From contig NZ_CP041186.1 in NCBI RefSeq assembly GCF_006517175.1, positions 4,057,074-4,121,073 of the forward strand: a stretch of DNA of 64,000 nucleotides, written 5' to 3'. Below are positions 4,613 to 63,966 of this stretch, piece after piece. This DNA is from Persicimonas caeni. GTDB lineage: Bacteria > Myxococcota_A > Bradymonadia > Bradymonadales > Bradymonadaceae. Position 1 is the first letter of the stretch. The number at the start of each line of letters is the position of its first letter. The translations under genes were made by a program, and so were the position numbers. The notes beneath the pieces are model-generated. The model had not been told where the DNA came from. It did not search any database and was given only the letters and a program-made list of their open reading frames with translations.

Positions 4613-6634
4613 ATGGCCAACAAGACACACCCAGAAGCTGACAGCGAGCAGGTTTCCACCCCGTCGGGTCCCGAGGGGGAGCAGGAGTTGGCGTCGGTCG
4701 AAGTCGAGCCGATCGAGTCGACGTCGTCTCAATCGCAGCACGCCGATATCGAGCAACTGATCGGCAGGAAGATCGCGGATCGCTATCTCGTCAAACGCTG
4801 CATCGGCGTCGGTGGCATGGGCGTGGTCTACTTGGCCGAGCACGAGCAGCTCAGCCGCAAAGTGGTCGTCAAGACCATTCGGCGCTCCGACCTCAACGAC
4901 GAATCCGACGCCAAGCGCTTCGAGCGCGAGGCGCTGGGTCTCAGCCAGCTCGACCACCCCAATATCGTGACCATCTACGACTTCGGCCACGAGGGGACGC
5001 TCTCCTACATCGTCATGGAGTTCGTCGACGGCGGCACGTTGCGTCAGGTGATGAAGAATACCGGGCCGATGGTGCTGGCCGACTTCGGTCTGGTCGCCAT
5101 TCAGATCCTCGACGCAGTCGGAGAAGCCCACCGCCGCGGTCTGATCCACCGCGATCTCAAGCCGTCGAACATCATGCTCTGTGAGAAGCAGGGCAAGCCG
5201 AACTTCGTCAAGGTCCTCGACTTCGGGTTGGCCAAACTGCTCCGCGACGGCGCGGAGTTGACCCAGAAAGACACCGTCATCGGCTCGGTCTCCTACATGG
5301 CGCCCGAGCAGATCTTGGGCATGGACGTCGACACCCGCGCCGATGTCTACGCCCTGGGCGTGCTCTTCTACCAGATGCTGTCGGGCGAAAAGCCGTTCAA
5401 AGGCGGTGAGATGGGCGTGCTGTACCAGCACGTGCACTCCGACCCGCCGCACCTGTCGGAGGTGCTGCCGGCCGACCACGATATCCCCAAGAACGTCATC
5501 GATCTGGTCCACGTGTGCCTGAGCAAGGATCCCGACGACCGTCCCCGCAACGCCAACATGGTCCAGGAGATGTTGCGCGGCGCCGTCGACGCCTCAGACA
5601 TCTTTGCCAGTCCTTGGTCGGGCGCTCGCCACCTGAGCCCGGGAAGCGGCGAGTTTTATATCCCCACCGAAGGCTCGTCTAGCCGCAGCAGGCAGGTGCC
5701 TCAGGCCGGCGAGTACAGCGGAGTCATCTCGAAGCCCCTGCTCCAAGAGAATGTCGAGCAGGCCACCGCCGACCCGTCGTCGAACAAGCTCAAGATCGCG
5801 TTGGCAGCCGTCGGCCTCGTCGCTCTGCTCGGCGTTGGCTTCGCTGCCATGAATATGGGCGCCGAGAACGACGGGGCCGACGAACAGGCCCAGGCCCAGC
5901 AGCAGGAGGACTCCGCTCGAAGCGCGCGCGAGGCGCTCGACCGCGTGGACGCCCTCATCAAAAAGGGCAGCTACGCCCAGGCCAAGATGATCCTCGACTC
6001 CACCAAAGACTCGCGCAAAGGCAACCCGGAGTTGCTCGAACAAGAGGCGCGTCTGCGCGTGGCGATCGACTTGCAACGTCTGATGCAGAAGGCCGCCGAG
6101 CAAAGCGAGCATGCTCAGTTCGACGAGGCGATGGCGACCTATCGCAAGGTGCTCGAGCAGGACGGCAACCACGCCGACGCCAAGAAGGCCCTGGCAGAAT
6201 TGGAGAGCTATCCCGTGGTGACCGTGACCTCGACGCCGGCCGCGTCGCTGTGGGTCGACGGGGAGCGGGTCGGTCAAACGCCCATCGATCACCGGCTCGC
6301 CCCCGGGGAGCACACCCTCGAGTTGAGCGTTGCCGACTACCAGAAGTGGACCGAGACCTACGAGCTGGCCGTCGGCGATCACGAGCGGATTCAGGCCAAG
6401 CTGCAGAAAGCCGGGGGCTCCGCAGGAGCTCGCCGAGACCGCCCAAAGGCCCGGCCCCGCCAAGTCGAGCGCTCGCAGGGACGCAAGCCGAAAGCCTCGG
6501 CCGGGGCGAAGCCTGCTACCAAGACCTCTGCTTCGACGAAGGAAACCAAAGAGCCAAAGCGCAAGATCGACTTGCTCATGCCGGCCGATGAAGATCTCGA
6601 GGACGATTCGGTGCCCATGATGGGCATCGAGTGA
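4613..6634 (+). CDS. Membrane Ser/Thr protein kinase with TPR and PEGA domains
   Basis: A Hanks-type (eukaryotic-like) kinase of about 673 residues. The ATP loop is 'GVGGMGVVY', the Lys is in 'KVVVKTI', the catalytic loop is 'HRDLKPSNI', the Mg loop 'DFGLAK', and the activation segment ends in 'YMAPEQ'. A linker leads to one transmembrane helix ('LAAVGLVALLGVGFAAMNMG'), then TPR-like helices and an extracytoplasmic PEGA domain ('VTVTSTPAASLWVDGERVGQ'), with a basic Lys/Ala tail. ATG at 4613 is preferred over GTG at 4577 because it begins a normal acidic N-terminus. This is a signalling receptor: the PEGA part faces the periplasm and the kinase the cytoplasm. Targets cannot be inferred. Confidence 0.93.
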   Translation: MANKTHPEADSEQVSTPSGPEGEQELASVEVEPIESTSSQSQHADIEQLIGRKIADRYLVKRCIGVGGMGVVYLAEHEQLSRKVVVKTIRRSDLNDESDAKRFEREALGLSQLDHPNIVTIYDFGHEGTLSYIVMEFVDGGTLRQVMKNTGPMVLADFGLVAIQILDAVGEAHRRGLIHRDLKPSNIMLCEKQGKPNFVKVLDFGLAKLLRDGAELTQKDTVIGSVSYMAPEQILGMDVDTRADVYALGVLFYQMLSGEKPFKGGEMGVLYQHVHSDPPHLSEVLPADHDIPKNVIDLVHVCLSKDPDDRPRNANMVQEMLRGAVDASDIFASPWSGARHLSPGSGEFYIPTEGSSSRSRQVPQAGEYSGVISKPLLQENVEQATADPSSNKLKIALAAVGLVALLGVGFAAMNMGAENDGADEQAQAQQQEDSARSAREALDRVDALIKKGSYAQAKMILDSTKDSRKGNPELLEQEARLRVAIDLQRLMQKAAEQSEHAQFDEAMATYRKVLEQDGNHADAKKALAELESYPVVTVTSTPAASLWVDGERVGQTPIDHRLAPGEHTLELSVADYQKWTETYELAVGDHERIQAKLQKAGGSAGARRDRPKARPRQVERSQGRKPKASAGAKPATKTSASTKETKEPKRKIDLLMPADEDLEDDSVPMMGIE

Positions 6635-6711
6635 ATGAAGTCACGCGATTGGGATCGATGTGACTGAGACGACGATTGAATGACGACGCACTCAAATGTG
6701 GACATGGCTCG

Positions 6712-7215
6712 ATGTATCAGCCCATGAGAAGGCCGCGAGGGATGGTAGCCGCGCTGGTCGCTGCAATGCTTGCCGGCGCGATCGGATGTAGCGACTCCGC
6801 CAACGACACGGACCCCTCGCCGGACGCCGGGGCAGACGCCTCGGGCGACGTGACGGTGCGTGACGTGCGCGACCCGCAACTGCCACCGACGTTCCCTAAC
6901 GTGGCCGACGTCATCCGCAGAAACTGCGCCTCCGGGGCCTGCCACGGTGGGCGCGGGGCGGGCAACTTCTACATCCCGCACAACGTCGATGCCACCAATG
7001 CAGAAGTGCGCTACGCCCTGCAAGACGTGACCAGCAGGAAATGGGAGATGCCTTTGATCGAGCCGGGAGTTCCCGCCGAGAGCGAGGTCTTCTTGCGTAT
7101 CACCTCCCAGACCGAGGGAGAGCGCATGCCTCAAGAGCCGCGAGACCGGCTGCTGAGCTGGGAAATCGAGATGATCGAGAACTGGATCGCAAACGGCGCG
7201 CTGTACGAGGAGTAG
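6712..7215 (+). CDS. Cytochrome c-like lipoprotein
   Basis: About 167 residues. A signal peptide with lipobox 'LAGAIGC' is followed by an Asp/Ala-rich linker, as in many lipoproteins of this window. The single haem-type motif reads 'CASGACH', i.e. CX4CH rather than the classical CX2CH; CX4CH is known in some multihaem cytochromes. Downstream 'MPLIEPGVPAESEVFLRI' and 'MPQEP...' resemble the planctomycete/myxobacterial cytochrome c-like domain, where the second Met is the likely axial ligand. Start choice: ATG 6712, with ATG 6724 nearly as good. The next gene encodes a superoxide-reductase-like lipoprotein, which suggests a shared redox role in the envelope. Confidence 0.75.
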   Translation: MYQPMRRPRGMVAALVAAMLAGAIGCSDSANDTDPSPDAGADASGDVTVRDVRDPQLPPTFPNVADVIRRNCASGACHGGRGAGNFYIPHNVDATNAEVRYALQDVTSRKWEMPLIEPGVPAESEVFLRITSQTEGERMPQEPRDRLLSWEIEMIENWIANGALYEE

Positions 7216-7408
7216 GCGCCTTCGAACCACGAGATGGAACGGTTTTTAAAGAATGGTTCGCTCCGGCGGATCAGGCCGGCTGCCAGCGGCGCCGGCGAGG
7301 AGGGGAGGGGCTCGACGCCGCTCCCCAAAGAGGACGCAGGACATCTTCCTGCGAATGTGTCGCACACATGATGTTTCACATGAGCTGCAACGAGAAAGGA
7401 GAGAGAGG

Positions 7409-7909
7409 ATGAGTGACTCGAAGAAATTGAACCGACGTGAAGCCATCAAGCGCATGGGCATTGTCAGTGCGCTCACGCTCAGCGTGCCCGCCACCCTCTG
7501 GGGCTGCGGCGACAGTGCGACCGACGACTCGAGCAACGGTGGAGTGGACGAATACGACAAGCAGCGCGTCAAGGCGCTCGAAGAGGCGAGTCGCAAGAAG
7601 TTCTACTCCGCCGCCGATCCCGACGTGTGGGAGGGCAAGGCCGGCTCGCACGTGCCCGCAGTGACCTTCGTCGGCGGCGGCATCGTCGAGGTGTTCACCA
7701 ACCACGAGATGACCGTCGAGCACCATATCAACGCGCACTACATCAAAGACGCCGACACCGGCGAGGTGCTCGGCCTGACCGAGTATAGCGGCCTCGATGC
7801 CGAGGCGCGCACCGAGTTCACCCTCCCGGCGGGCGTGCAACGGATCATCGTCCACTCGTGCTGCAACCAGCACGAAAACTGGGTGGCCGATGAAAAAGAC
7901 GTCTCGTAA
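7409..7909 (+). CDS. Tat-exported superoxide reductase-like (neelaredoxin-type) lipoprotein
   Basis: 166 residues from ATG 7409, which has a strong GGAGAGAGG ribosome site 1-9 nt upstream. The N-terminus 'NRREAIKRMG' is a twin-arginine motif, followed by a hydrophobic run and a lipobox Cys at residue 33. The rest matches the iron-binding fold of desulfoferrodoxin/neelaredoxin: 'HVPAV', then 'NHEMTVEHHI' carrying two His ligands, then 'CNQHENW' carrying the Cys and last His of the Fe(His)4Cys centre. The usual Glu-Lys before HVP is replaced by Gly-Ser; that Lys assists superoxide reduction in characterised enzymes, so activity may differ. Tat export fits a cofactor loaded in the cytoplasm. Product: periplasmic, lipid-anchored. 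Confidence 0.82.
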   Translation: MSDSKKLNRREAIKRMGIVSALTLSVPATLWGCGDSATDDSSNGGVDEYDKQRVKALEEASRKKFYSAADPDVWEGKAGSHVPAVTFVGGGIVEVFTNHEMTVEHHINAHYIKDADTGEVLGLTEYSGLDAEARTEFTLPAGVQRIIVHSCCNQHENWVADEKDVS

Positions 7910-8002
7910 TGACCACGCAGGCGGAGCGCGTCTGCTTGCAGGCGCGCTCCTCGCCGGCATCACCGACTAGCCTCGCAGATTTCTTTTATACGGGTTCACA
8001 GG

Positions 8003-9535
8003 ATGTTCAGGAACGACCCCTCCGCTGCCGTAGCGGCACGCACTGCACTCGTCATCGCCGGCTGCATGCTGTTGGCGGGCTGCACGAGTCTCGAAAACTT
8101 TACCGAGTGCGAAACGGACTCCGCGTGCAAGAGCAAATATGGATCGCTCTCCGTATGTGCCGACGACGGCATCTGTGAGCAGATGACTCGGGACATGCTC
8201 CAGGCCCCCTGTGACCGGACCTACGGCAACTTCGGCGCAGAAGACGTGGTGCCCGTGGGCGTGCTTCTGCCGAGCAGCGGCGCGCTGGGCGGTGTCGGCA
8301 CGCCGGTGCGTCAGGCGATCTACCTGGCCACCGACGACATCAACGCCATGGGCGGGCTCAACGGCCGAGAGATGGCCCTGGTCGTGTGTGATTCCGCCGG
8401 CGACCGCGATGTGGCGCGGCAAGCGGCGACTTACTTGATCGAAGACCTCGGGGTCGAGGCCATCCTCGGGCCGCTTACCGCCACCAGCGCCTTCGCGTTG
8501 GCCGACTTGGCCAAGCAGCACGAGGTGCCGATGATCTCGCCGTCGATCACCGACCCGAACCTGTCGGACATCGACGATGGCGGCTATATCTGGCGCACCG
8601 TCGCCACCGACGACAAGCAAGGCGAGGCCTTGGCCAAGCTCGTCCAGCACATCATGGACACCGTGCTCGACAAGCCGCACGAGGACGTCCGAGTCGCCAT
8701 GGTCGTCAACGACGACATCTACGGCGAGACCCTCAACCGCGCGTTTACCCAGCACATGATCGCGAGCGGTTACCTCGACTTCAACCCCAACCCCGGCGGC
8801 CCCGATCAGGTCGTGTCGATCTCGTACGAAAACGCGGTCAACATCGACCGGACCGTGCCCACCGACCTGGAGATGTTCAAAGAGCTGGAGAGCCTGTCGC
8901 CGGCGCCGGATATCGTGGTGTGGCTCGGACGCCCCGACCTTTGGGTGACCATGCTCTCCTACGACCAGCTGATGCGCTCACCGACCATCGGCCACACCGC
9001 CTATCACGTCATGCCCGACCTGGCGAAAGACATCGCGCGCGCCGAGATGGGCAGCGAAGAGGTCGCAGGGCGCATTTGGGGCACAGCCCTCAAGACCAAC
9101 GCCGACGCGAGCTACCCGCCGTTCCAGAGCTTTCGAACGATTTACCAAGACGCTTGGGTTTATGATCCGGTGCAGGTTCAATACGCCTCGAACGGCTGGG
9201 ACGCTACATACGCGCTGGCCATCGCCGCCAAGAACACCGACCTGAGCGGCGAGCAGATCAACAAGGGCCTCGAGCGTCTGACCGCCGATGGCACCGAAGT
9301 CGAGGCGGTCAAATCGGATCTCCAAAAGGCGTATAACGCCGTGAGCAACGGCCAATCGGTGGCGCTCCAGGGGGCTTCGGGCCCCATCGCCTTCGACCCG
9401 CAGACCGGCGACATCGAGAGCGACCGCGACATCATCTTGTGGTGCTACGCGCACCATACGCTGACCGAGGTCGGCAGCATCTTCGACGGTGAGACGTTCA
9501 CCGCGCGCAGCTGCATCGAGGCAGCGGCCGAATAG
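8003..9535 (+). CDS. Leu/Ile/Val-type (Peripla_BP_6) substrate-binding lipoprotein
   Basis: 510 residues. Lipoprotein signal 'CMLLAGC' near residue 27, a short Cys-rich segment ('CETDSACKSKYGSLSVC...CEQ'), then a type I periplasmic binding fold: 'VPVGVLLPSSGALGGVGTPV', 'AIYLATDDINAMGGLNGREM', 'AILGPLTATSAFALADLA', 'VPMISPSITDPNLSD' and 'VAMVVNDDIYG'. These are the hallmark segments of amino-acid receptor domains of LIV transporters and of signalling receptors. No permease or ATPase genes are adjacent and a kinase gene follows, so it may be an orphan sensor rather than a transporter component; that is inference. The Cys-rich insertion between lipobox and domain is unusual for the family. Confidence 0.88.
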   Translation: MFRNDPSAAVAARTALVIAGCMLLAGCTSLENFTECETDSACKSKYGSLSVCADDGICEQMTRDMLQAPCDRTYGNFGAEDVVPVGVLLPSSGALGGVGTPVRQAIYLATDDINAMGGLNGREMALVVCDSAGDRDVARQAATYLIEDLGVEAILGPLTATSAFALADLAKQHEVPMISPSITDPNLSDIDDGGYIWRTVATDDKQGEALAKLVQHIMDTVLDKPHEDVRVAMVVNDDIYGETLNRAFTQHMIASGYLDFNPNPGGPDQVVSISYENAVNIDRTVPTDLEMFKELESLSPAPDIVVWLGRPDLWVTMLSYDQLMRSPTIGHTAYHVMPDLAKDIARAEMGSEEVAGRIWGTALKTNADASYPPFQSFRTIYQDAWVYDPVQVQYASNGWDATYALAIAAKNTDLSGEQINKGLERLTADGTEVEAVKSDLQKAYNAVSNGQSVALQGASGPIAFDPQTGDIESDRDIILWCYAHHTLTEVGSIFDGETFTARSCIEAAAE

Positions 9536-50120: not shown

Positions 50121-50277
50121 GGCTGCCGGACGCTCCATCCGTTTCAGTCCACCTTCGTAAACATTTCAGTCCTCCGTCGTAAAATGGGAAGGAATTGGCG
50201 CGTCATGTAAATGCGCCGAATGAGCCCTCTTTGTATTCTCTCCCCGTCTACTCAGTTTGATGACGAGGGAGTGAATC

Positions 50278-53200
50278 ATGTTGTTGGAGCGCACACATTT
50301 TCTTGCCGCCATACCTGTCGCCCTGATGCTCGCCGGCTCCGCTGCTGGCTGCTCGGATGGGGCCATGTCCGAGGAGTCTCAGGCAGTCGACGAACGGAGA
50401 GGTGACGAGCGAGACTATCCCTCGACCTTCGAGTTCCAGTCGTTCGATGGCCCCTGGACATGGAGCGAGCAGCAAAAGCTCGTCGCGGCGAATCGCTCCG
50501 ACACCGACGAATTCGGCGAGGTGATGGCGCTGAGCGCAGACGTGGTGCTGGTGGGCGCTCCCCGCGATAACACGAGGGCAAACGGAAGCGGCGCGGCAGT
50601 GATCTTTGCCCGCGATGAGGGTGGGGAGGACAACTGGGGACGCGTCACCGAGCTCTTCGCCTCCGACGCCACTTGGGACGCCGAGTTCGGCTCCGCGGTG
50701 TCGGTGAGCAGCGAGGTCGCCTTGGTCGGCGCTCCCTTCGCCCGTTACGACGGCGCGCGCAAGGGAAGCGCGTATCTCTTCGGGCGCAACGTCGAAGGGC
50801 CGGACGCCTGGGGAAGGATCACCCGGCTGAACGCCGCCGACGCCGCCGATGGCGACCGCTTCGGCGCCGCTGTGGCAGTCAGCGACGAGTTGGCGGTGGT
50901 CGGCGCGCACGCCAAGAACGTCAGCGGGAGCTGGTCTGGGGCGGCGTACGTCTTCGCTCGAGATGAAGGTGGCGGCGACAACTGGGGACAGGTCGCCAAG
51001 CTGACCGCTCCCGACGGCGCCGCCGACGACACCTTCGGCCGCGCCGTTGCCGTGAGCGGCGACGTGGTCGCCGTCGGCGCCCACGGCCATGACGAGCGGG
51101 GGAGCGACGCGGGTGCCGCGTATGTATTCTCCAGAGACCACGGCGGCCCGAACAACTGGGGACTGGTCACCAAGCTCGTTCCCTCCGAGCTCGAGGCCGA
51201 CGACGACTTCGCAACCGCGGTCGCGCTGAGCGGCGATCTGCTCGTGGTGGGCGCCCGTGGAGACGACGACCGGGCCAGTGGGGCGGGGGCGGCGTACGTC
51301 TTCGCCCGAAACGAAGGCGGTACCGACAACTGGGGGCAGGTCGTCAAGCTGACCGCGTCCGACGGCGAGGCGTTCGATTGGCTCGGCCAAACGGTGGCCG
51401 TGAGCAATACGGTCGCCTGGATAGGCGCCATGCGTGATGACGAGGCGCTGGCGTATGCCTTCGCCCAGAACCAAGGCGGCCCAGGCAACTGGGGCGAGGT
51501 TGAGGTCGTCAGCGCTGTCGATCAGCAGCCCGGCCTCGGGGCCGAAGGCGCCGTGGCGGTCAGCGGAGAGTTCGGGGCGATCAGCAACAGCGGCTCGGAC
51601 GGCCAGTTGGGCGCGGCCTACGTATTCGGCGTGCCCAACGCCCCGCCGGAGGCCGCCGACGACGCGCTCAGCGTTGACGAAGATACACCGACCGCCATCG
51701 ACGTGCTCGCCAACGACGTCGACTCCAACGGTGACCCGCTCGTCATAGAACAGATCACCGAGCCCTCCCACGGCACGGTGGTCGACGACGAGGGGGAAAT
51801 TACCTACACCCCCGAGCCGGAATATAACGGCGACGACTCCTTCGATTACACCATTTCAGATGGTCGCGGAGAGACCTCCACGGCGACGGTGTCGGTCACC
51901 GTCGTCGCGGTCAACGACCCGCCCGTTGCTGCCGACGACACCGCCACGCTCGACCAGGGCACCGCCTTGTCGATCCGTGTGCTCGCCAACGACACCGACA
52001 TCGACAGCGACTCGCTGGTCGTCGACAGCGTCGCCTCGCCGACGCACGGCACGGCGAGCCACGACGGAGACTCCGTGCTCTACACACCGGAGGCCGATTA
52101 TGCCGGCGACGACTCCTTCGACTACACCGTGGCCGACGCCGACGGCGCGACCGCCACCGCGACGGTGCACGTGACCGTCATGGCCGTCGAGGATGGTCCG
52201 CACGACGGGGACGCCGACGCCGGCGCAGATACCGGCGCCGACGCCGATGCCGGCGGCGCCAACCAATCGAGCGGGCAGTCCAACGCCGGCAAAGGCGGCT
52301 GCTCGACGGTGCACGCCCCCGCCAACCTCGCCGCCGTGCTCCTGGTGTTGCTAGGCGTATGGGGACTGCGCCGCCGGCGAAGCCTCGTCGCCGTGTTGCT
52401 TGTGGCCGTGGGACTGGCTGCTTCCGGTTGCTCGGACGCCTCGGCGCCCGACGATTCGCCCGAACCCACCACCGTCCAGGCGCAACGCCTCGACGGACGT
52501 TGGGCGGACCCCACCGAACTCGCCGCTGGGGGTGTCGTGGCGATGAGCGGTGGCGTGGCGATTGTGGGAGATCGGGGGGCGGCGCCCAACGGCGTGAATT
52601 CGGGCGCGGCCTATGTCTTCGCCAGGGACGAGGGCGGGGAGGGGAACTGGGGGCAGGTGAAAACGCTCCTGCCCAACGACCCCGAGGACTACGACGAATT
52701 CGGGCACTCGGTCGCGATGGGCGGCGACGTCGCGTTGATCACGGCGCGCCACGATGACGACGGCACCGGCGCCGCCTATCTGTTCGCCAAAGACGAGGGC
52801 GGGCCGAATAACTGGGGGCTCGTCGACAAATTGAGCGCGCCGGACGCGAGCTACTGGAGGTTTGCACGACATGTGGCGGTCAATGCAGACACAGCCATCC
52901 TCACCGCTATGAAAATGGATAACTCGAAAGTCGCACTCATCTTCGCGAAGGATCCGAGCGGCGCGAACGCTTGGAGGTATGTCAAAGACCTCGACCTGGG
53001 CGGTGTTGCTCAATTCTACATGCTGACGATGAGTGAGGACAACGCCGTCGCCATTATCGACCCGCCGGGGATCGCGGACGACCATGTCCACCTCTTCGGC
53101 CGGGCTCAGGGCGGTCCGGACAACTGGGGCCGTATCAAGCAATTAGACGTGCAATACGGCGATTCGGCAGCGGTGAGCGGAGACGTGGTGGCTGTAGGTA

Positions 53201-56200
53201 GCTCCAGCAGCCCGACACCCAACGGCAACGGCTCGGGAACCGGCCAGGTCTACCTCTTCGCCAAAGACCACGGCGGGCCGGATCAGTGGCGCCAGTTCAA
53301 GACGCTCTTCGCCAAGGACGCTGTTCGGTTGGATGCGTTCGGGGCCTCGGTCGCTCTCCGCGGCGACATGCTCGTGGTCGGCGCTCCGGGAGACGATGTG
53401 CACACCGACCAAATCTACGAGAACTCTGGGTCGGCCTACGTCTTTGTCCGCGACCATGGAGGGGCGGACAACTGGGGGCAGGTCGCCAAGCTCGGCGCGG
53501 CCGAGCGTGCGACCGGAGCCGGGTTCGGTTCAGATATAACGCTCGACGACCACTCTATCGTTGTGGGAGGCACCCCGGCGCACGCTTTCGATATCCCGAA
53601 CTCCTCGCCCGAGGCCGCCGCCGACGCCGCGAGCACCGCCGAAGATACGCCGGTGACGATCGACGTGCTGGCAAACGACACCGACGTCGACCTCGACGCG
53701 CTCAGCGTTCACGCGGTCACCCAACCGGCCCACGGCTCTGCGGTCAGCAACGGCGCGGACCTCACCTACACCCCGGGCGCCGACTTCAACGGCGAGGATA
53801 CCTTCGAGTACACCGTCTCCGACGGAAGCGGCGGACACGCGACGGCCACGGTGACGGTGACCGTCTCGCCGGTCAACGACGCCCCGGTGGCCGCCGACGA
53901 CACGGCGCAGACCGACGTGGACACCCCGGTGACGATCGAGGTGCTGGTCAACGACGCCACCGTCGACGGCGACACGCTCACCATCGAGAGCACCACCCGA
54001 CCGACCCACGGCCAGATAGGCCACGACGGCTACGCCATCACCTATAATCCCGCAGGAGACCACATAGGCGAGGACTCCTTCGCGTACACGATCACCGACG
54101 GCCAGGGGCAGACCGCCACCGCCACGGTGCGCGTGATCGTCCTGCCGGTCGAAGAACTCACCGGCACCCCCGGCGCTGACGCCGGCACGGACTCGGGCCA
54201 GCCGGACAACTCGTCGAGCGAGGGCAAAGCGGCCAACGGAGGCTGCTCGTCGGTCGACGCCCCGGCGAACGCCGCCGTCGCGTTGGTCGTCTTGCTGGGC
54301 CTGCTCGGGTTTCGCCTGCGCCGCCGAGCCCTGACGATGGCGCTCGGTGTGATCGCGCTGGTCACCATCGGCTGCGGGGGCGGCGGCGAATCTCCTTCGC
54401 AAGCAGTCGTGCAATGCGAGCCCGATCCTGCGCGGATCGCCGAGCGCGACCGCTGCCAGACCGACGAGACCTGCCCCTGCGGCACCTTCTGCGACCTGGG
54501 GCGCTGCGAGGCCGAGTGCACCAGCGACGCCGATTGCGCCGACGGCGAGGTTTGCAGCACCTACGGGCAATGCCGCTCGCCCGACCAGGTCGACCAGTGG
54601 CGCCTGCCGGCCACCCAGGGCGGCGGCTCGCTCAGCTTCGTCGCCTCCTCTCGCACCTTGCCCGACGGCCAGGCGCTGCGCGTGGAGCTGCGCGCCGGCG
54701 AGGAGCCGGTCTCTCGAGCCCGGGTAGAAGGCGTCGACGGAGCGCTCGTTTTGTGCCCCGACGCCCAGGTGTGGACAGCCGAATGCATGCTCACCGAGAT
54801 CGACGCGCAGGCGATCGTCGAGCTGTACGTCAAGCGGCGCACGGCTGGCGACGGCGACCAGGAGGTCGACCCCGACGCGATCGCCACCCTCGAAGCCCAT
54901 ACGTCCGAGGGGACCGACCGCTTGAGCCTGTTTCGGCCCCAGCAACGCCTGGCTCCCATGCCCGACGTCGCTCCCGCGCCCGACGCGCCCATTGCAGGGC
55001 GCTACGAGGGGCAGATGCGTCTGTCCGGCGTCGGCAGTGACCGCGACCTCGACGCGCTCTCCGCGCCTTCGGAGCGGCTCGATCAGCCTGTCACGGCGAC
55101 GGTGTGGTCGGTCGACGACCGCTTCGTCATCTCCATCGCCGACGAGCTGAACGCGCTGACCAGCCGCCCGGCTTTCGTGGGAGAGGCGACCTTGGGCGAA
55201 GCCGACGCCGACACCGGCGTGCGCGCAGGCCAGGTCGCATTCCCCATGCATCCCTTCATCGAGACCACCGTCGCCGGGCGCACCACCGCCTGGTTGACCT
55301 CGACGGTAGACGCCCGGGTGCACGTGACCAGCCGCCCGCGCACCGTGGAGCTCGAGTTGACCCAGTCCTTCCTCGGAAGCGGAGCTGATGTGGCCCCCAC
55401 GGTGCGCTGGCGGGTCGACCTGGAGCGGGTCGCCGACGCCGACCAGGCGGCGCCCTCCGTGCCCGCCGACGCCACCTTCGGCGACGATCCCGCCGCGCAG
55501 CTCGCCGCGGCGAGCCCCTGGGAGGCCGCGTTCGGCCAGACCGTCAACGCGACGATCGACCCCGACGCGGCGCTTCGCTGGTACAACGGCGGCCCGGCGT
55601 CGCTGGCGATGTGTGGCAGCCAAGAAGGCAGCAACGCCGTCGCCGAGGCCCTCTTTGCCAAGTGGTTGAGCCTCGATGGGCGCAATTTGACCGAGCCGAT
55701 CCGCGAAGATACGCCGTTTTACGCCTTGATCGACAACGTCTACTGGGGCACCAGCGCGCCGAGCTTCGACGACGCATCCTTCGAGCCAGAACTGTCGGAC
55801 GCCCGGCTCCCCTGCGAGCTGACCGACCTGAATCTGCAGGTGTCCACCCAAAACGATGGCGGCGGGGCCGCCAGTTTCTCGCACATCGACTTCTGCGAGG
55901 AGGTCGCCGCCAAGACGGGCTGCGTGCTCGAAGACGCCTCCAGTGAGACGCTCGAGGTCACCGCCGACGGGACCTTCTTGAGATCTGGGGAAGAGAAGAC
56001 GATCACGGCGGACTATTCGATGAAGGTCGTCCGCACGTGCCGTCTGCCGGCGGTCGGCTCGTCGTGCTCCGAGGGGATCTTCTGCATGGACCCGGCACCC
56101 GATGCCGGCGACGCAGACTACGTGGCCGGCGAGTTCGACCTCGACCCGCAGGCCCTGGCGGAATCGGGCGACTTTAGCTGTGCCTCGGGCAGGCGTACGG

Positions 56201-59200
56201 CGACTATCGCCCTAGACGCCGTCGATCCCGGCGAGCGCACCGTGGGCGAGGCGATCAACGGATGCCTCGACGAGGTGCTCACCTTGGCCGATGCGCCGCC
56301 GACGATGTCGCCCGAGCCGTACGGCGCCGGCTTCGACGCGCTGTACGACGACCCGGCGTGCGTCGGCGTCGGCCGGTTGCTGACCGCCGTGGCCGCGCAG
56401 TCGCGCTCGCTGCGCGCAGACGTGCCCATGCCCGAGTCCGACAGGCACGCCGCCGGCGTCGCCTACACCCACCGCCTGCTGAGCCGCTGGCTGCAGGTGC
56501 ACTCGTTCATCGCCACCGAGTCCGACCAACTGGCGGACATGAAGAATGTCTTCAGCACTGACGAGGACGACGGGGGCGAGGATGTCGAGAGTCAACGATT
56601 CGTCGACGGCGCCCAGGCGCGCCAGGCGATGGTGCAGGGCTGGGATTTGATCTTGTCGCCGCACATCACCCACGCGGTGTTGAACACGCCCCGGGCGGTG
56701 CTGGAGAGCCCCGACTACCGCGCGCACAAGTCGGGCTACGAGACCGCAGAGCACGAAGAGCAGAAGCAGCCCCTATCGGCGGTGATGCTCGAGACGCTGG
56801 CCCGCCAGTCGATCTATCTGAACAAAGAAGTGCGAACCTCGCTGAGCGTGACCGACGAGGAGCGCGTGGCGCTGCTTCGCGGGTTCACCCCCCGCAGCAT
56901 CATGGTGCAGGCGCTGGCCGCCGACATGCACGCCCGCGCCGGCGCCGGCCAGCCCCAGCCGCAGGTCGAGAGCGACTACGACCGGGCCTGGCGCCGGCTG
57001 CTCGCCACCAGCACGACCACCGCGCAGACCCTCGCCGGCTTCGCCTCGGGCTTGGACCCGTTGGGGATCGCCGACCGCAACCTGCCGCTGTACTTCCACA
57101 CCTCCACCATCACCGGGGCGATCGGCCGGTTCACCGCGGTCAGCGACTTCATCGCCGGCTCCGGGCCGGGGGACGACGCTGCTTGGGCGCCGGCGATGGT
57201 CGACGACGCCAAGGCGTCCTTGGAGGCGGCGCGCCAGGCCTTCTTGGACCAGGCCGACCGCGACCTGCAGGCCGAGCGCTACGAGCGCGACGTGCAGGTG
57301 TGGGCCTCCCAGATCCGGCGCGAGTACAACGCCAAGCTGCGTGACTACTGTGGGCCGCTGGACGATTCGCCGGTCGACGACCCCGACTTCGACGCGTCGA
57401 CCTGCTCGATCGACCAACAGAACCCCGACTGCCAGTTCGACGTCAAGGGCTGGTACGAACGGTGGACCGACGAAGACGTCATGGCCCGATTCTGCATGCA
57501 TCACAAGATCGACCAGTCGTCGCTGGACGACTCCCTGGGCTTCGCCAGCCAGAAGCTGCGCGACTTCGCCCGCAGGTGCCCGCGCACTGACTCGGCGAAC
57601 GCGCAGGCAGTCTCTATCGGCGCGTGCGCCGGGGACCCGCAGACTCCCTGTTTGAAATGCACGGCCAACCCGGCGCTCGACGAGGTTCCCCTGGATGGGA
57701 CCAGCCTGCAGTTGCGCGGCCGCAACGGCGGCAACGGCGAGACCGGCTACTTCGGCGCCTGGAACACCTACTGGAGCGAGTGCGAAGCGCGCTTCTCCGG
57801 CGCGCGGCGAAACATCCTGCTGCCAAAGAGCCCCATCGAGCGGCCCGAGTGCGTCAGCGGCGCGCTGGGCGAGGCCTTCCTGGGGGTGGCGTCGGCGAAC
57901 TTCGACGTCCAGCAGGCCAACCAGCAGATGGCCGATCATATCGAGGCCTACGACATCGCCATGCAATCGTGCTGGACGCTCGCCGAGAGCAATCAGCGGC
58001 TCAAAAACGTGCGTGACGCCCACCGCACCACGATGCGCAACCTGAACATCCTGCGGTCGACCGCCGACAGCACCGCCTCGGCGCTCGGGGCGACCAAAGA
58101 CTGTCTGGGCGCGGCGGCGAGCGCCGACAAGGACGATCCCCTCAGCGCGGTGGTCAACGGCGGGATCGTCTCCGGTCTCTGTGTCACCGCCGGCTTCGAG
58201 TCGGCGGCCGAGATCATTAGCATCAACCTGCAGTCCGAGATGGAGCGCAACCAGATGCGACACGACGACACCGTCGCCAACCTGGAGGCCGAGGCCGAAG
58301 AGAAGATCTGCTTCAACGAGGCTCGCCTCAAGCTGGTCGGCGCAAAGACCGCCGCCATCGACCTGGAGCGCGCCGCCTTCGACCTGGAGGGCGCCCAGGG
58401 CTCGTACGCCACGATGGTCGCCGAGGCCCAGTCGGCGCACGCCCGCGGACACGCGTTCTTGGAGGAGTCGGACCTGTTCGACACCCCGGCGCCGGTAGGC
58501 ACCCCCTGGTTCGACGAGTTGGTCTCCACCTACACCCGCGACTTCAAGCTCGCCCGCCGCGCGACCTACCTGGCGGTGCGCGCAGTGGAGTACGAATTCC
58601 AGCAGTCCATCGGCCTGCGCCAGCAGGTGCTCCAGGCCCAGGTCCCCACCGACCTGGAGGCCGTGCTGCAGGAGCTGTGGCAAGACTCGGGCACCCGCTC
58701 CATCCAGGGCAGTCGGCCCACCGAGCTGAGCACCGTGCTCAGCCTGCGCGACGACATCCTGCAGCTGGGCGACAAGAGCCAGTGGCCGGCCGAGATGCGC
58801 CCGATGACCCCGCAGCAGCGCTTCCAGGTGCTGCTGACCTCCGAGCGCTACGCCGCCTACGACGAGCGCGGCCAGTACACCGGCCAGCGCATCCCCTTCT
58901 CGCTCGCCCCGCTGGCCGCCCTGGGCATGGACGCCAAGGGCGTGCCCATCTACTCGCAGAACGACTGCGCCGAGCGGCTCTGGTCGGTCAACGCCTCGAT
59001 GGTCGGCGACGACTTGTTCCGCGGCTCGGACACCTCGTTCGTGCGCATCGACCTGCTCAAGCGCAACACCTTCTACAGCCAGTGGTGCGGCGACGCCCCC
59101 GAAGGCCAGCCCTTCCAGCTGGCCACGGTGCGGCCGACCCAAAACCTGTTCCGCGAGCCCGGCGTCGGCGAGGAGTACGGCACCGACCAGGGCGTCGAGC

Positions 59201-59445
59201 AGAGCGCCGAGCGCTTCTCACGCGCCCGCATCCAGGCCTTCTTCGGCGTCGACCGCGCCGCCCTCGAGGATACCCAATACGCCAACGGCGAGACCAGCGA
59301 ACTGGCCGCTCGCGGCCTATACGGCGACTACGCGCTCTTCATCCCCGCCAGCCTCATCGCCCGCGACGACGAAGACGGTCTGGTGCTCGAAAACGTCGAC
59401 GACATCCTGCTGCGCCTCGACTACCTCTCGGTCGCCAAACCCTGA
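50278..59445 (+). CDS. 3055-codon frame: three lipoprotein-like modules fused in frame
   Basis: ATG 50278 has a GAGGGAG ribosome site and lipobox 'LAGSAAGC' (Cys25). Module A (residues 1-701): about six FG-GAP/integrin-like repeats ('GDVVAVGAHGHDERGSDAGA'), two tandem-95/cadherin-like Ig domains from residue 454 ('VDEDTPTAIDVLANDVDSNG'), an Asp/Gly linker and a MYXO-CTERM-like tail with Cys675, hydrophobic run and Arg698-701. Without a stop, module B (702-1350) starts with its own signal and lipobox Cys718, repeats the FG-GAP plus Ig plan, and ends in a second such tail (Cys1323, Arg1346, Arg1348-1350). Module C (1351-3055) starts with a third lipobox (Cys1366), a Dickkopf-like Cys module, beta-rich and then long helical regions; it matches no family I recognise. 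The frame is intact throughout, so either a polyprotein or a recent fusion of three tandem genes. Confidence 0.8.
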   Translation: MLLERTHFLAAIPVALMLAGSAAGCSDGAMSEESQAVDERRGDERDYPSTFEFQSFDGPWTWSEQQKLVAANRSDTDEFGEVMALSADVVLVGAPRDNTRANGSGAAVIFARDEGGEDNWGRVTELFASDATWDAEFGSAVSVSSEVALVGAPFARYDGARKGSAYLFGRNVEGPDAWGRITRLNAADAADGDRFGAAVAVSDELAVVGAHAKNVSGSWSGAAYVFARDEGGGDNWGQVAKLTAPDGAADDTFGRAVAVSGDVVAVGAHGHDERGSDAGAAYVFSRDHGGPNNWGLVTKLVPSELEADDDFATAVALSGDLLVVGARGDDDRASGAGAAYVFARNEGGTDNWGQVVKLTASDGEAFDWLGQTVAVSNTVAWIGAMRDDEALAYAFAQNQGGPGNWGEVEVVSAVDQQPGLGAEGAVAVSGEFGAISNSGSDGQLGAAYVFGVPNAPPEAADDALSVDEDTPTAIDVLANDVDSNGDPLVIEQITEPSHGTVVDDEGEITYTPEPEYNGDDSFDYTISDGRGETSTATVSVTVVAVNDPPVAADDTATLDQGTALSIRVLANDTDIDSDSLVVDSVASPTHGTASHDGDSVLYTPEADYAGDDSFDYTVADADGATATATVHVTVMAVEDGPHDGDADAGADTGADADAGGANQSSGQSNAGKGGCSTVHAPANLAAVLLVLLGVWGLRRRRSLVAVLLVAVGLAASGCSDASAPDDSPEPTTVQAQRLDGRWADPTELAAGGVVAMSGGVAIVGDRGAAPNGVNSGAAYVFARDEGGEGNWGQVKTLLPNDPEDYDEFGHSVAMGGDVALITARHDDDGTGAAYLFAKDEGGPNNWGLVDKLSAPDASYWRFARHVAVNADTAILTAMKMDNSKVALIFAKDPSGANAWRYVKDLDLGGVAQFYMLTMSEDNAVAIIDPPGIADDHVHLFGRAQGGPDNWGRIKQLDVQYGDSAAVSGDVVAVGSSSSPTPNGNGSGTGQVYLFAKDHGGPDQWRQFKTLFAKDAVRLDAFGASVALRGDMLVVGAPGDDVHTDQIYENSGSAYVFVRDHGGADNWGQVAKLGAAERATGAGFGSDITLDDHSIVVGGTPAHAFDIPNSSPEAAADAASTAEDTPVTIDVLANDTDVDLDALSVHAVTQPAHGSAVSNGADLTYTPGADFNGEDTFEYTVSDGSGGHATATVTVTVSPVNDAPVAADDTAQTDVDTPVTIEVLVNDATVDGDTLTIESTTRPTHGQIGHDGYAITYNPAGDHIGEDSFAYTITDGQGQTATATVRVIVLPVEELTGTPGADAGTDSGQPDNSSSEGKAANGGCSSVDAPANAAVALVVLLGLLGFRLRRRALTMALGVIALVTIGCGGGGESPSQAVVQCEPDPARIAERDRCQTDETCPCGTFCDLGRCEAECTSDADCADGEVCSTYGQCRSPDQVDQWRLPATQGGGSLSFVASSRTLPDGQALRVELRAGEEPVSRARVEGVDGALVLCPDAQVWTAECMLTEIDAQAIVELYVKRRTAGDGDQEVDPDAIATLEAHTSEGTDRLSLFRPQQRLAPMPDVAPAPDAPIAGRYEGQMRLSGVGSDRDLDALSAPSERLDQPVTATVWSVDDRFVISIADELNALTSRPAFVGEATLGEADADTGVRAGQVAFPMHPFIETTVAGRTTAWLTSTVDARVHVTSRPRTVELELTQSFLGSGADVAPTVRWRVDLERVADADQAAPSVPADATFGDDPAAQLAAASPWEAAFGQTVNATIDPDAALRWYNGGPASLAMCGSQEGSNAVAEALFAKWLSLDGRNLTEPIREDTPFYALIDNVYWGTSAPSFDDASFEPELSDARLPCELTDLNLQVSTQNDGGGAASFSHIDFCEEVAAKTGCVLEDASSETLEVTADGTFLRSGEEKTITADYSMKVVRTCRLPAVGSSCSEGIFCMDPAPDAGDADYVAGEFDLDPQALAESGDFSCASGRRTATIALDAVDPGERTVGEAINGCLDEVLTLADAPPTMSPEPYGAGFDALYDDPACVGVGRLLTAVAAQSRSLRADVPMPESDRHAAGVAYTHRLLSRWLQVHSFIATESDQLADMKNVFSTDEDDGGEDVESQRFVDGAQARQAMVQGWDLILSPHITHAVLNTPRAVLESPDYRAHKSGYETAEHEEQKQPLSAVMLETLARQSIYLNKEVRTSLSVTDEERVALLRGFTPRSIMVQALAADMHARAGAGQPQPQVESDYDRAWRRLLATSTTTAQTLAGFASGLDPLGIADRNLPLYFHTSTITGAIGRFTAVSDFIAGSGPGDDAAWAPAMVDDAKASLEAARQAFLDQADRDLQAERYERDVQVWASQIRREYNAKLRDYCGPLDDSPVDDPDFDASTCSIDQQNPDCQFDVKGWYERWTDEDVMARFCMHHKIDQSSLDDSLGFASQKLRDFARRCPRTDSANAQAVSIGACAGDPQTPCLKCTANPALDEVPLDGTSLQLRGRNGGNGETGYFGAWNTYWSECEARFSGARRNILLPKSPIERPECVSGALGEAFLGVASANFDVQQANQQMADHIEAYDIAMQSCWTLAESNQRLKNVRDAHRTTMRNLNILRSTADSTASALGATKDCLGAAASADKDDPLSAVVNGGIVSGLCVTAGFESAAEIISINLQSEMERNQMRHDDTVANLEAEAEEKICFNEARLKLVGAKTAAIDLERAAFDLEGAQGSYATMVAEAQSAHARGHAFLEESDLFDTPAPVGTPWFDELVSTYTRDFKLARRATYLAVRAVEYEFQQSIGLRQQVLQAQVPTDLEAVLQELWQDSGTRSIQGSRPTELSTVLSLRDDILQLGDKSQWPAEMRPMTPQQRFQVLLTSERYAAYDERGQYTGQRIPFSLAPLAALGMDAKGVPIYSQNDCAERLWSVNASMVGDDLFRGSDTSFVRIDLLKRNTFYSQWCGDAPEGQPFQLATVRPTQNLFREPGVGEEYGTDQGVEQSAERFSRARIQAFFGVDRAALEDTQYANGETSELAARGLYGDYALFIPASLIARDDEDGLVLENVDDILLRLDYLSVAKP
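52297..52431 (+). other. Internal sorting tail followed by lipobox signal (junction 1)
   Basis: Residues 674-718: Gly-Cys675, a hydrophobic stretch, four Arg (698-701), then directly 'SLVAVLLVAVGLAASGC' ending in lipobox Cys718. The Arg cluster would be both the stop-transfer end of a MYXO-CTERM tail and the basic n-region of a new signal peptide. No stop codon lies nearby in this frame, and GTG 52393 is the only plausible internal start. Confidence 0.8.
54241..54375 (+). other. Internal sorting tail followed by lipobox signal (junction 2)
   Basis: Residues 1322-1366: Gly-Cys1323, hydrophobic stretch, 'FRLRRR', then 'ALTMALGVIALVTIGC' ending in Cys1366. An in-frame ATG at 54337 could start module C on its own. 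A TGA lies 4 nt before that ATG, but in another frame, so it does not stop module B. Confidence 0.8.
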
Positions 59446-59588: not shown

Positions 59589-59826
59589 TTGCCAAGAAAA
59601 GGCAGTGAACACAACAGGATGCGGGTCGTCGACATGGCGGCCCGCTTTCTGCTTCTTGAGGGCCCATGGCCCACCTGTGGCCCACCTGGTGTGGCTGATC
59701 GCTGTTTGGCGGGTCGGTTCCGAGGGGGACTTTGGGGGACTTCTGGGGAAGTTTGTCGGGTGGTTTTACTTATTCGCTTTCTCGCTGCCTGATGTCGTCC
59801 GTATTTGATTCTTGGCGGGAGTAGGA

Positions 59827-60975: not shown

Positions 60976-61395
60976 ATGACTGACCACAAACGCTGGGAAA
61001 ATACCCGTGATGCATGGGTTTGGGCTGAAAACGATGACCTGCCGGGGCGTGACGACAAGCGTGCCGACTTCCTGAGTTTTAAGCCTGAGGAGTGGATGGG
61101 CGATGCTTTCGACCAGATTGAAGCTGCTGTGATCTCCATATCGTCACGGGTGGACCGGCATGGGGACACGTTGTCCTGCTGGACGGATCGTGGCGAGAAC
61201 CTCTCGGTGCGGATCTGGCAAGCACCTTTCCCGTCACCTCCAGGTATCGAAGCGCGCATCGCGTGGTCGGTCGATGAAGATGGCCGCTGCGAGTCTGGCG
61301 AAACCGATGTCCAGCCTGACGACCCGTTTTCTCGGATTCGTGAGCATGTGATGGAGGAGATCGCCAGCGGCCTCGCCCGACTACGTGACAGGTGA
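60976..61395 (+). CDS. Hypothetical protein, 139 aa
   Basis: ATG 60976. Acidic, Trp-rich soluble protein ('DHKRWENTRDAWVWAENDDL', 'FLSFKPEEWMGDAFDQIEAA', 'IEARIAWSVDEDGRCESGET'). No signal peptide and no family recognised. It is convergent with the helicase-HNH gene and the two coding ends overlap by 15 bp, which suggests a tight, possibly functional pairing in the accessory segment. Confidence 0.65.
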   Translation: MTDHKRWENTRDAWVWAENDDLPGRDDKRADFLSFKPEEWMGDAFDQIEAAVISISSRVDRHGDTLSCWTDRGENLSVRIWQAPFPSPPGIEARIAWSVDEDGRCESGETDVQPDDPFSRIREHVMEEIASGLARLRDR

Positions 61396-63966
61396 CGCCA
61401 CTGTCTCGCCCGCGTCGCTGCTCGCGCTGACCACCCTTTCACCCTGCACGTAGACTTCGATGCGCTTCGGAGCGGCCTTCAATTTGTGGTCGGCCCGGAT
61501 CTGGCGGGCCTTTTCGACCAACTTCGGGAGTCGCGGCTCCAGCCATTCGGAAGGATTGTTTGAGAATAGGTGGATCTTCCAGACCCGCAGCGCCTCGCCT
61601 CGCTGGCCAACTTCGACTCGGTCCACCGCATCGCTCTCGTAGAAGAAATTGATGACCCGAGCGAAGTAGCAGGACCACCACTTCGGATCCATCGCGTGGT
61701 CACGAATGTTTGGCGGGTATGCGTCCAGGCGCAATTCCGAAGTTGGAGCTTCGTTCCACGGGGTGGCGTGGACGCGAAAGTTGATGAAGTCGGTTCCCTT
61801 TACTTGGTTGCAGCGTTTGCACAGCGTCTGCGAGTTCTGGCGCGACGTGCTGCCGCCGTCGGAGTACGGGCGGATGTGGTCGATTTCCAATGAAGGGCGG
61901 TAGTCCCAGTCACAGCACAGGCATCGGCCCCGAGCCCGATTGATGATTTCGTCTTTCTCTTCCTCGGTTAGTTCAGGCGGCGGCGGTGCGACGACGGTCT
62001 TGTTGATCTCCGTTGGTGGTGTGTCGCTTCGCAGGCGTCGGTACGAAGCGTCGAAGGCGCTGCAGAAGTGCTCGAACGACGGGTAGAATCGTTTCCAGTA
62101 GCGATCGGCCTGGCCGTATTCTCGCCGAAGCAGGTCTTCCTCTTCGATTCGGTCGAGACGTTCCTGATAGACGTGCTGCGCGAGGACGTCGAGGTCGTGT
62201 TGGTCCCGGGCCTCGAAGGGAAAGAACTCGGGCCGGCGCCCGTCGCCCTGTGCCATGTGACGAGCCAGCGCCCTCAGGTTCGGTCGGATATTCGACATCA
62301 ACTCCTCGGGCGCATCTCCAAACCGCTCAGCCCACTGGTCGACATGCGAGGCGATGCGCTCCTCGACCCGGTCGACGTCTTCGGAGAGCAGCTCGTCGAC
62401 AAATACCTGCGGAAGATCCCGTGTCCATTCTTCGAGCAGGCCGTCGAATATTTCCTTTTGGTCCTCGTAGACGAGCAGCATTCGTCGGACCTGCTCGATG
62501 TTGTCGTGGTCGGCCCGCACCTCGTACTCGACACGGTACCAGCCTACGGGCAGCAACTCCGTGTACGGCACAGGGTTGATATTGATGCCGGTGTCCATCT
62601 GACGAGCGAGCCGTCGCACCAGCGCCACCGAAATCTGCTCGATAGGCGTACGTTCGGCGGGATCCCCGCCGGTTTCCAATCCACCGAAGATGTCTTCGAC
62701 GTCGGCCCAGTGGATGAGTTGGCGCCAGTCGTCGATGAACGAGACGATGTGAGCTTCGTCGGTACCGCCAAATCTCGGGCCACGCAGCGCCCGTCCGACC
62801 ATTTGGGTGAGCAGGATCGAACTCGTGGTCTTCCTGGTCAGGAACACAGTCTTCGCGTCCGGGACGTCCGTGCCCTCTGTCAGGATCCCGATGTTGACGA
62901 CAACATCGAGCTCGCCGTTCTTGAACGCCTCGATGACCTGGTCGTTGCTGTGGCGAGTCTTGTTCCGCTCCTCGGCCGTTCGCCCTCGCGGGTCGGTATG
63001 GGAAAAGACCGAGCCGGCCCGCACGCCGCGATCCTCGAGCATCTCCTCGAGCATGATGCACTGCGGCCAACGGTCGGCGAAGATGATGGTCTGCCCGTAC
63101 AGTGCCCGGTTCTGAGCGTAGTGGTCCGCGATGTGGGCGTTGCGCTCCCGGTTTTCCGCGAGCTGGGTGATGATCGACTCGGGCAGGTCTCGATTGGTGC
63201 GTGACCATCGCTCGTAGTCGGTGGCGTCGAAGGTGGGCGTGAAGTCGAGCGGGATGTCGTGGATCTTAGGCTGCGCGAGGACCCGGGCCGCCATCAGATC
63301 GTCGGCGGTGACCCGATAGATGATGCCCTGCGGAAACAACTCTCCTAGCCACCCACGCTTGCCCTCGTCGGTGTACGTGGGAGTTGCAGACATACCGAGA
63401 AGCTGCATGCGCGGGATCCGGTCACGCAGGGCGAGCAGCAGCCGGCGGTACGTGTTGGCCGGGGTGTGGTGGGCTTCATCGAAGACCACGAAGAGATCGT
63501 CGCCTGCGGCATCGATGAACTCTTCCAAGGCGTCCACGCCTCGTTTGTACGCACCTGTGATCGTCTGAATCGTCGCGATGACGACATCATCTCCCGGTTC
63601 GACGTGCCCGATGCGAAAGTGTCCAGGTGCCCCAGAAACCGTCCGCACGCTCACCTGCCGCTCCTCTCCGATCGCTTGCACGCCTTCCCCGAAGGCTTCG
63701 AACGCCTGCTCGAGAAGGTGGTGGGTATGAGCCAACCACAGCACTTTGCGACCCTCTCGAAGAGCGGTTCTTGCCAGGAACCGCGTGGCGATGAACGTCT
63801 TTCCTCCGCCCGTGGGGATGGAGAGCAGGGCGCCGGCTGCGTCGTCACGTTTGCCGTCGTACCACCGTTGTAGCGCGTCGAGCGCCTCTCGCTGGTGCTC
63901 GACCGGATGCTTGGTCGGGGAAACGCTCTTGGTGAGGTCGTATCGGGCGTACGCGTCGGTCATCAT
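61381..63966 (-). CDS. SF2 (DEAH) helicase with C-terminal HNH nuclease domain
   Basis: 861 residues; two ATG codons in tandem at 63966/63963, with the window ending 34 nt upstream. Helicase part (1-430): Walker A 'PTGGGKT' at 51-57, 'VVFDEAHH', motif III 'LGMSATPT', 'VVNIGILTEGTDVPDAKT' and motif VI 'QMVGRALRGPRFGG'. A ~250-residue helical middle follows. Residues ~670-720 form an HNH module: 'CLCCDWDYRPSLEIDHIRPYSDGG' (split here), 'CKRCNQVKGT', with zinc Cys pairs and the catalytic His. Helicase-nuclease fusions of this kind (type I restriction-like or stand-alone) are typical of anti-phage islands. Partner genes may lie beyond the window. Confidence 0.9.
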   Translation of the reverse strand: MMTDAYARYDLTKSVSPTKHPVEHQREALDALQRWYDGKRDDAAGALLSIPTGGGKTFIATRFLARTALREGRKVLWLAHTHHLLEQAFEAFGEGVQAIGEERQVSVRTVSGAPGHFRIGHVEPGDDVVIATIQTITGAYKRGVDALEEFIDAAGDDLFVVFDEAHHTPANTYRRLLLALRDRIPRMQLLGMSATPTYTDEGKRGWLGELFPQGIIYRVTADDLMAARVLAQPKIHDIPLDFTPTFDATDYERWSRTNRDLPESIITQLAENRERNAHIADHYAQNRALYGQTIIFADRWPQCIMLEEMLEDRGVRAGSVFSHTDPRGRTAEERNKTRHSNDQVIEAFKNGELDVVVNIGILTEGTDVPDAKTVFLTRKTTSSILLTQMVGRALRGPRFGGTDEAHIVSFIDDWRQLIHWADVEDIFGGLETGGDPAERTPIEQISVALVRRLARQMDTGININPVPYTELLPVGWYRVEYEVRADHDNIEQVRRMLLVYEDQKEIFDGLLEEWTRDLPQVFVDELLSEDVDRVEERIASHVDQWAERFGDAPEELMSNIRPNLRALARHMAQGDGRRPEFFPFEARDQHDLDVLAQHVYQERLDRIEEEDLLRREYGQADRYWKRFYPSFEHFCSAFDASYRRLRSDTPPTEINKTVVAPPPPELTEEEKDEIINRARGRCLCCDWDYRPSLEIDHIRPYSDGGSTSRQNSQTLCKRCNQVKGTDFINFRVHATPWNEAPTSELRLDAYPPNIRDHAMDPKWWSCYFARVINFFYESDAVDRVEVGQRGEALRVWKIHLFSNNPSEWLEPRLPKLVEKARQIRADHKLKAAPKRIEVYVQGERVVSASSDAGETVASPVT

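Follow-up and report, generated by a model that had tools for sequence, protein, structure and literature searches.

The frame and its two junctions

The window, i.e. the whole stretch of 64,000 nucleotides that was analysed, belongs to the genome of Persicimonas caeni, a single contig of 8,047,206 bases (8.05 Mb), and carries on its forward strand an uninterrupted frame of 3055 codons, from an ATG at 50278 to a stop ending at 59445 (Table 1). The initial annotation had divided this frame into three modules, A, B and C, with two internal junctions where a tail of MYXO-CTERM type runs straight into a new lipoprotein signal, and this description holds, the frame having no internal stop and both tails exceeding the cut-off of TIGR03901 (MYXO-CTERM). 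The four junction cysteines (Cys675, Cys718, Cys1323 and Cys1366) all lie at the positions given there. Modules A and B had likewise been recognized as paralogues, in agreement with their 37% identity over 623 aa and with the FG-GAP_2 and Big_9/cadherin domains found in each (Pfam), and C is, as stated there, unrelated to both; searches of module C against Pfam and NCBIfam gave no family match. On the opposite strand, the frame is adjoined by a gene for an 861-aa protein with ResIII/DEAD helicase and HNH endonuclease domains.

Table 1. Positions of the frame, its parts and the other loci discussed in the text (window numbering unless a locus or the contig is named).
Feature	Position	Strand	Basis
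Whole frame, three modules, presumptive single precursor	50278..59445	+	no internal stop
N-terminal lipoprotein signal of A, lipobox Cys25 at 50350-50352	50278..50352	+	sequence
Module A: six FG-GAP_2 repeats, two Big_9/cadherin-like domains, Asp-rich linker	50353..52293	+	Pfam
Internal MYXO-CTERM tail 1 (GGCSTVHAPANLAAVLLVLLGVWGLRRRR), Cys675 at 52300	52294..52380	+	TIGR03901, 25.3 bits
Lipoprotein signal of B (SLVAVLLVAVGLAASGC), directly after the Arg cluster, Cys718 at 52429	52381..52431	+	sequence
Module B, paralogue of A: four FG-GAP_2, two Big_9	52432..54237	+	Pfam
Internal MYXO-CTERM tail 2 (GGCSSVDAPANAAVALVVLLGLLGFRLRRR), Cys1323 at 54244	54238..54327	+	TIGR03901, 26.2 bits
Lipoprotein signal of C (ALTMALGVIALVTIGC), Cys1366 at 54373	54328..54375	+	sequence
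TGA out of frame, followed after two nt by the in-frame ATG (CCC TGA CG ATG), junction 2	54332..54339	+	sequence
Module C: Cys-rich lipoprotein family of ~1700 aa	54376..59442	+	paralogues in genome
C-terminal 545 aa of module C: predicted long helical hairpin and beta domain	57808..59442	+	AF2 prediction
Weak promoter-like site upstream of frame	50158..50185	+	consensus match only
Terminator-like hairpin downstream of frame	59621..59645	+	consensus match only
Helicase/HNH endonuclease gene	61384..63966	-	
Myxosortase MrtP gene	L112:4642-5823	-	NF040674, 392 bits
AxA-type frame with OmpA domain	L041:7584-12575	-	Pfam
AxA-type frame	L041:2852-7432	-	
AxA-type frame with OmpA domain	L042:2286-7649	+	Pfam
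AxA-type frame with OmpA domain	L033:6673-14340	-	Pfam
AxA-type frame	L111, about 6292-8235	+	
Family I, own copy (~4.82 Mb)	L110:6565-10893	-	
Family I loci	L110, L169-L196, L221-L270		
Family II loci	L107 (position 8042791 of contig), L172, L174, L180, L199, L202, L271		
Frame of ~2700 aa with TcA_TcB_BD domain	L281, contig 4239228-4240055	-	PF18276
Frame of ~2700 aa with TcA_TcB_BD domain	L282, contig 4319637-4320512	-	PF18276

The curated cut-off of TIGR03901 is 20 bits, and it is exceeded by both tails in the genome search, the score being lower (17 bits) when the whole 3055-aa protein is searched. The tails share with myxosortase-sorted proteins (TIGR03901; MrtX, MrtC, MrtP) the Cys signature, the helix, the Arg cluster and the presence of MrtP in the genome, but the family is defined as C-terminal, whereas here about 1700-2350 residues follow the tail (2383 and 1735 residues from tail start to stop). 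After each tail, a hydrophobic core ends in a lipobox-like x-x-[AGS]-C (AASGC for B, VTIGC for C), with a less canonical residue at position -3 (A and T, respectively). Both signals are internal rather than N-terminal, and the sole charge available to them comes from the Arg cluster of the tail before them. The lipo-invert family (NF058595) was considered as the identity of the joints and rejected, its score in the window frame (24.6 bits) lying under the curated cut-off of 37 bits and none of the matches in 29 genomes exceeding it.

Internal tails in this genome and across the phylum

Reading of the MYXO-CTERM tails of this genome gave 61 in total, 51 of them terminal and 10 internal, the internal ones being distributed over nine frames. 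A new export signal follows within about 15 residues after all ten internal tails, five times with a lipobox and five times of AxA-like type. Since random positions in long frames have a hydrophobic core in the next 15 aa in 16% of cases, the joints occur more than chance would allow. The lipobox type includes, besides the window frame, a second frame (L029) carrying a paralogue of module C and two others that belong to the pairs described below as Family I and Family II. For the AxA type (Table 1), an OmpA domain was found in three frames and was absent from one further frame tested, and a fourth frame resembles one of the three OmpA frames by sequence. Two of the AxA-type frames adjoin each other in L041.

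A joint profile (A2) was then used to search 57 related genomes, with full-length stop-free matches in many, and stop-free joints were read in 26 of the 57. The 34 profile-matched loci read in the 25 genomes besides P. caeni all have the tail, the Arg cluster and the immediate signal. In a wider scan of all collected loci, a hydrophobic segment follows every internal tail and the window frame is the only one with two internal tails. The order A-B or A-B-C was not found in other genomes, where the A-B orthologue search gave FG-GAP/Big_9 cross-hits only. Because A-B-C has no orthologue elsewhere, the case for this frame itself rests on the class of joints to which it belongs.

Family I consists of a lipoprotein of about 830 aa, an internal tail, a lipobox and a Cys-rich protein of about 600 aa. 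It was matched in 68 of 191 genomes of the phylum, with no stop in any among the matches listed; as one frame it spans the Myxococcota, and in some lineages it is split with a 4-nt overlap and without tail. Between families, identity has fallen to about 25-30% in the halves before and after the joint, yet 14 aligned members share without exception the tail Cys, an Arg and the lipobox Cys, while the length and sequence of the linker vary. The tail is present at the joint of all fused frames collected (45/45). At the seven loci read where Family I is split into two genes, real stop codons are found; five of the upstream genes are tailless and share 4 nt (ATGA or GTGA) between their stop and the next start, and the other two close with a terminal tail and a stop. 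The association of tail and fusion is significant (Fisher p = 8e-6, not corrected for kinship). Among the loci read, the joined Family I frame thus occurs only where a tail separates the two proteins, as a polyprotein with a built-in separator predicts. The comparison of stop codons in orthologues, proposed in the initial annotation, found no orthologues for A-B-C itself; in Family I, the split lineages have real stops and an upstream gene usually lacking the tail.

Family II is a second fused tail-lipobox pair (about 690 + 340 aa) with a motif like DVLAIHG or LLAVYGDW, present in several genera; the copy of P. caeni has FG-GAP and Peptidase_M23 domains upstream of the tail. Among the other loci collected, L178 (G024:C220) holds two adjoining Family I-like fused frames on the same strand, each with its own internal tail, and L181:2263-17703 (reverse strand, G005) is a frame of 5146 codons in which about 3090 residues precede an internal tail and lipobox.

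History and predicted fold of module C

The module C family has five paralogues in this genome, four of them besides the window copy, and its relatives outside the genome (26 named loci and several family genomes) stand alone wherever the N-terminus is readable. In the tree, module C of the window clusters (support 100/100) with stand-alone copies from its own genome and from two family members, and that of L029 branches elsewhere, from which it follows that fusion of C to a protein with a tail took place at least twice, independently, in this genome. The out-of-frame TGA at junction 2 looks like a possible relic of an earlier close gene pair; lying beside a CCC run and an ATG, it may alternatively mark a one-base error.

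For the C-terminal 545 aa of C, the AF2 model has a pLDDT of 76 and a pTM of 0.48. Foldseek matches to this part reached a probability of 1.00 and E values of 4e-9 to 1e-5, but TM scores of 0.2-0.3, and all 19 PDB matches at E <= 0.001 were A subunits of Tc toxins. Sequence homology of C to Tc toxins was rejected, no sequence comparison supporting it: module C has no Pfam match to the TcA sequence families (PF18276 and related) and hhalign gave no match with a true TcA of this genome. As a lead only, the predicted C-terminal fold of C may be said to resemble the C-terminal part of TcA subunits. Two frames of about 2700 aa with the true TcA_TcB_BD domain lie elsewhere on the contig (L281 and L282, Table 1).

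Probable processing of the joints and its alternatives

The enzyme expected to act on such tails is encoded in this genome: a predicted myxosortase, MrtP, with an Rce1-like Pfam domain was found with a score well over the cut-off of its family (NF040674, 392 bits against 250). Cleavage of MYXO-CTERM tails has been shown for MrtX, where it depends on the tail cysteines and also takes place in E. coli, and processing of internal tails has already been proposed (PMC11980579).

One precursor processed by two cuts per joint into three lipid-anchored proteins is considered the probable product of the frame. A single mRNA would be translated straight through both joints, and the lipoprotein signal of module A would direct its export. 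The MYXO-CTERM helix of each junction would then stop the transfer, its Arg cluster staying in the cytoplasm, and the next hydrophobic segment would restart it as a new signal with the same Arg cluster as its n-region. Cuts by signal peptidase II before Cys718 and Cys1366 would release B and C with lipidated N-termini, and MrtP would trim the tails after Cys675 and Cys1323, so that A and B would be lipidated at their C-terminal ends too. The predicted end state is three separate lipid-anchored envelope proteins in equal numbers, with lipids at both ends of A and B and at the N-terminus of C. The envelope polyprotein put forward in the initial annotation thus fits better than the lost stops or internal starts that it had offered as alternatives, in view of the nine frames, the 26 of 57 genomes and the invariant Family I cysteines.

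Internal initiation would have B and C made from their own start codons, besides or instead of cleavage of a precursor, and an in-frame GTG (52393) and ATG (54337) are indeed present at the junctions; where the genes are split, the downstream proteins begin at starts of their own. Both codons, however, are located within the hydrophobic core, which no K/R precedes, and each lacks a charged n-region as well as a Shine-Dalgarno match. When an internal start was defined as a start codon followed by charge and preceded by a Shine-Dalgarno match of at least 4 nt, it was found at 5 of 45 joints compared with 25 of 35 true N-termini of the same frames (p = 3e-8), and at neither joint of the window. 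In 22 of these 45 joints, i.e. about half, the stretch from the Arg cluster to the next core contains no in-frame start codon (ATG, GTG or TTG) at all, and the upstream protein would still be without its own stop. Internal initiation is therefore held to be distinctly unlikely; most simply, the signal after each tail would borrow the tail's Arg cluster as its n-region. Even less credit is given to a recent stop loss or sequencing indel by which two or three ordinary genes became one frame. Such an event would above all concern junction 2, with its out-of-frame TGA-CG-ATG after a CCC run, and would be consistent with the stand-alone relatives of module C and with the absence of the A-B-C order from the other genomes searched; junction 1, on the other hand, has no comparable relic beside its signal. 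Neither sequencing error nor a lone stop loss can be the general cause, given ten joints in nine frames of one genome, the conservation of the joints and a pair fused phylum-wide. The published assembly of P. caeni YN101 is moreover Illumina-based with 144-fold coverage (PMC7188933), and if the strain is YN101, homopolymer indels would be uncommon.

The remaining alternatives concern the fate of the precursor. Cleavage by signal peptidase (II here) would alone suffice to separate the modules, A and B then retaining an inner-membrane hairpin of two helices, the uncut tail and the used-up signal, and it is an assumption of the two-cut model that the myxosortase accepts a tail with a second helix behind it. 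Still, the tail Cys, helix and Arg cluster are kept in the fused proteins, and the tails score above the threshold for a family in which the member tested undergoes cleavage (PMC11980579), which makes the single cut an unlikely, though not negligible, outcome. We infer cleavage from the joints, and the polypeptide might instead remain uncut and work as one multi-domain protein threading the membrane. This has very little to recommend it, with two separate cleavage signals at each junction and the same kind of partners made as two proteins in lineages with split Family I genes; because the partners are separate proteins there, joined function is not required in Family I.

Among known systems, the two-cut polyprotein resembles MXAN_5598 of Myxococcus xanthus, which has an internal MYXO-CTERM and whose N-terminal half was proposed to be processed and surface-anchored (Guo, Haft and Wall 2025, PMC11980579). 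Both combine a large adhesin-like half, an internal MYXO-CTERM and a second exported half in one frame, but the second half of MXAN_5598 is an outer-membrane barrel with OmpA, while the window frame joins lipoproteins via lipobox signals at two joints; no OmpA domain was found in it, which sets it apart from this adhesin-barrel type. The three frames of P. caeni with an AxA-type signal after the tail and OmpA are, on the contrary, MXAN_5598-like. TraA/TraB of M. xanthus is similar in having a MYXO-CTERM surface protein followed by an exported partner, and the two ORFs overlap (PMC11980579) as do those of split Family I pairs, but they are two genes rather than one frame and TraB is described as an outer-membrane partner, not as a lipoprotein of the C type. 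Viral polyproteins, in which a stop-transfer is followed by an internal signal and the products are released by host signal peptidase, offer an analogy and not a homology; the present case is bacterial, uses lipoprotein signals and would have a sorting tail for its second cut site.

The principle of an internal, likely processed tail is already published for MXAN_5598, and internal motifs were called rare (PMC11980579), as opposed to 10 of 61 tails here. What appears to be new, as far as the literature covered goes, are the lipoprotein-to-lipoprotein joints, the frame with two joints, the scale (a high share of internal tails and a family fused across the phylum) and the split relatives without tail; a search of the literature on bacterial polyproteins and lipo-invert returned nothing relevant.

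Cellular polyproteins are unusual in bacteria, and that such joints are common in this phylum suggests that sets of surface proteins are made as self-dividing polyproteins. The chances seem to us about even that this is a general envelope strategy of the Myxococcota, in which a tail and a new signal would form a two-cut separator delivering two to three partners in fixed ratio to the same membrane site, arising repeatedly from close or overlapping gene pairs and conserved phylum-wide in some families; the window frame would then be its first example with three proteins, namely two adhesin-like ones lipidated at both ends and a lipoprotein whose C-terminal region is possibly Tc-like. Since a phylum-wide pair exists both fused and split, the idea can be put to a direct test, and the joints would provide natural two-cut substrates for testing myxosortase and acyltransferase. 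If they work as they look, surface partners would be co-exported from one chain, and many Myxococcota proteins annotated as 'large multidomain' would really be two or three proteins.
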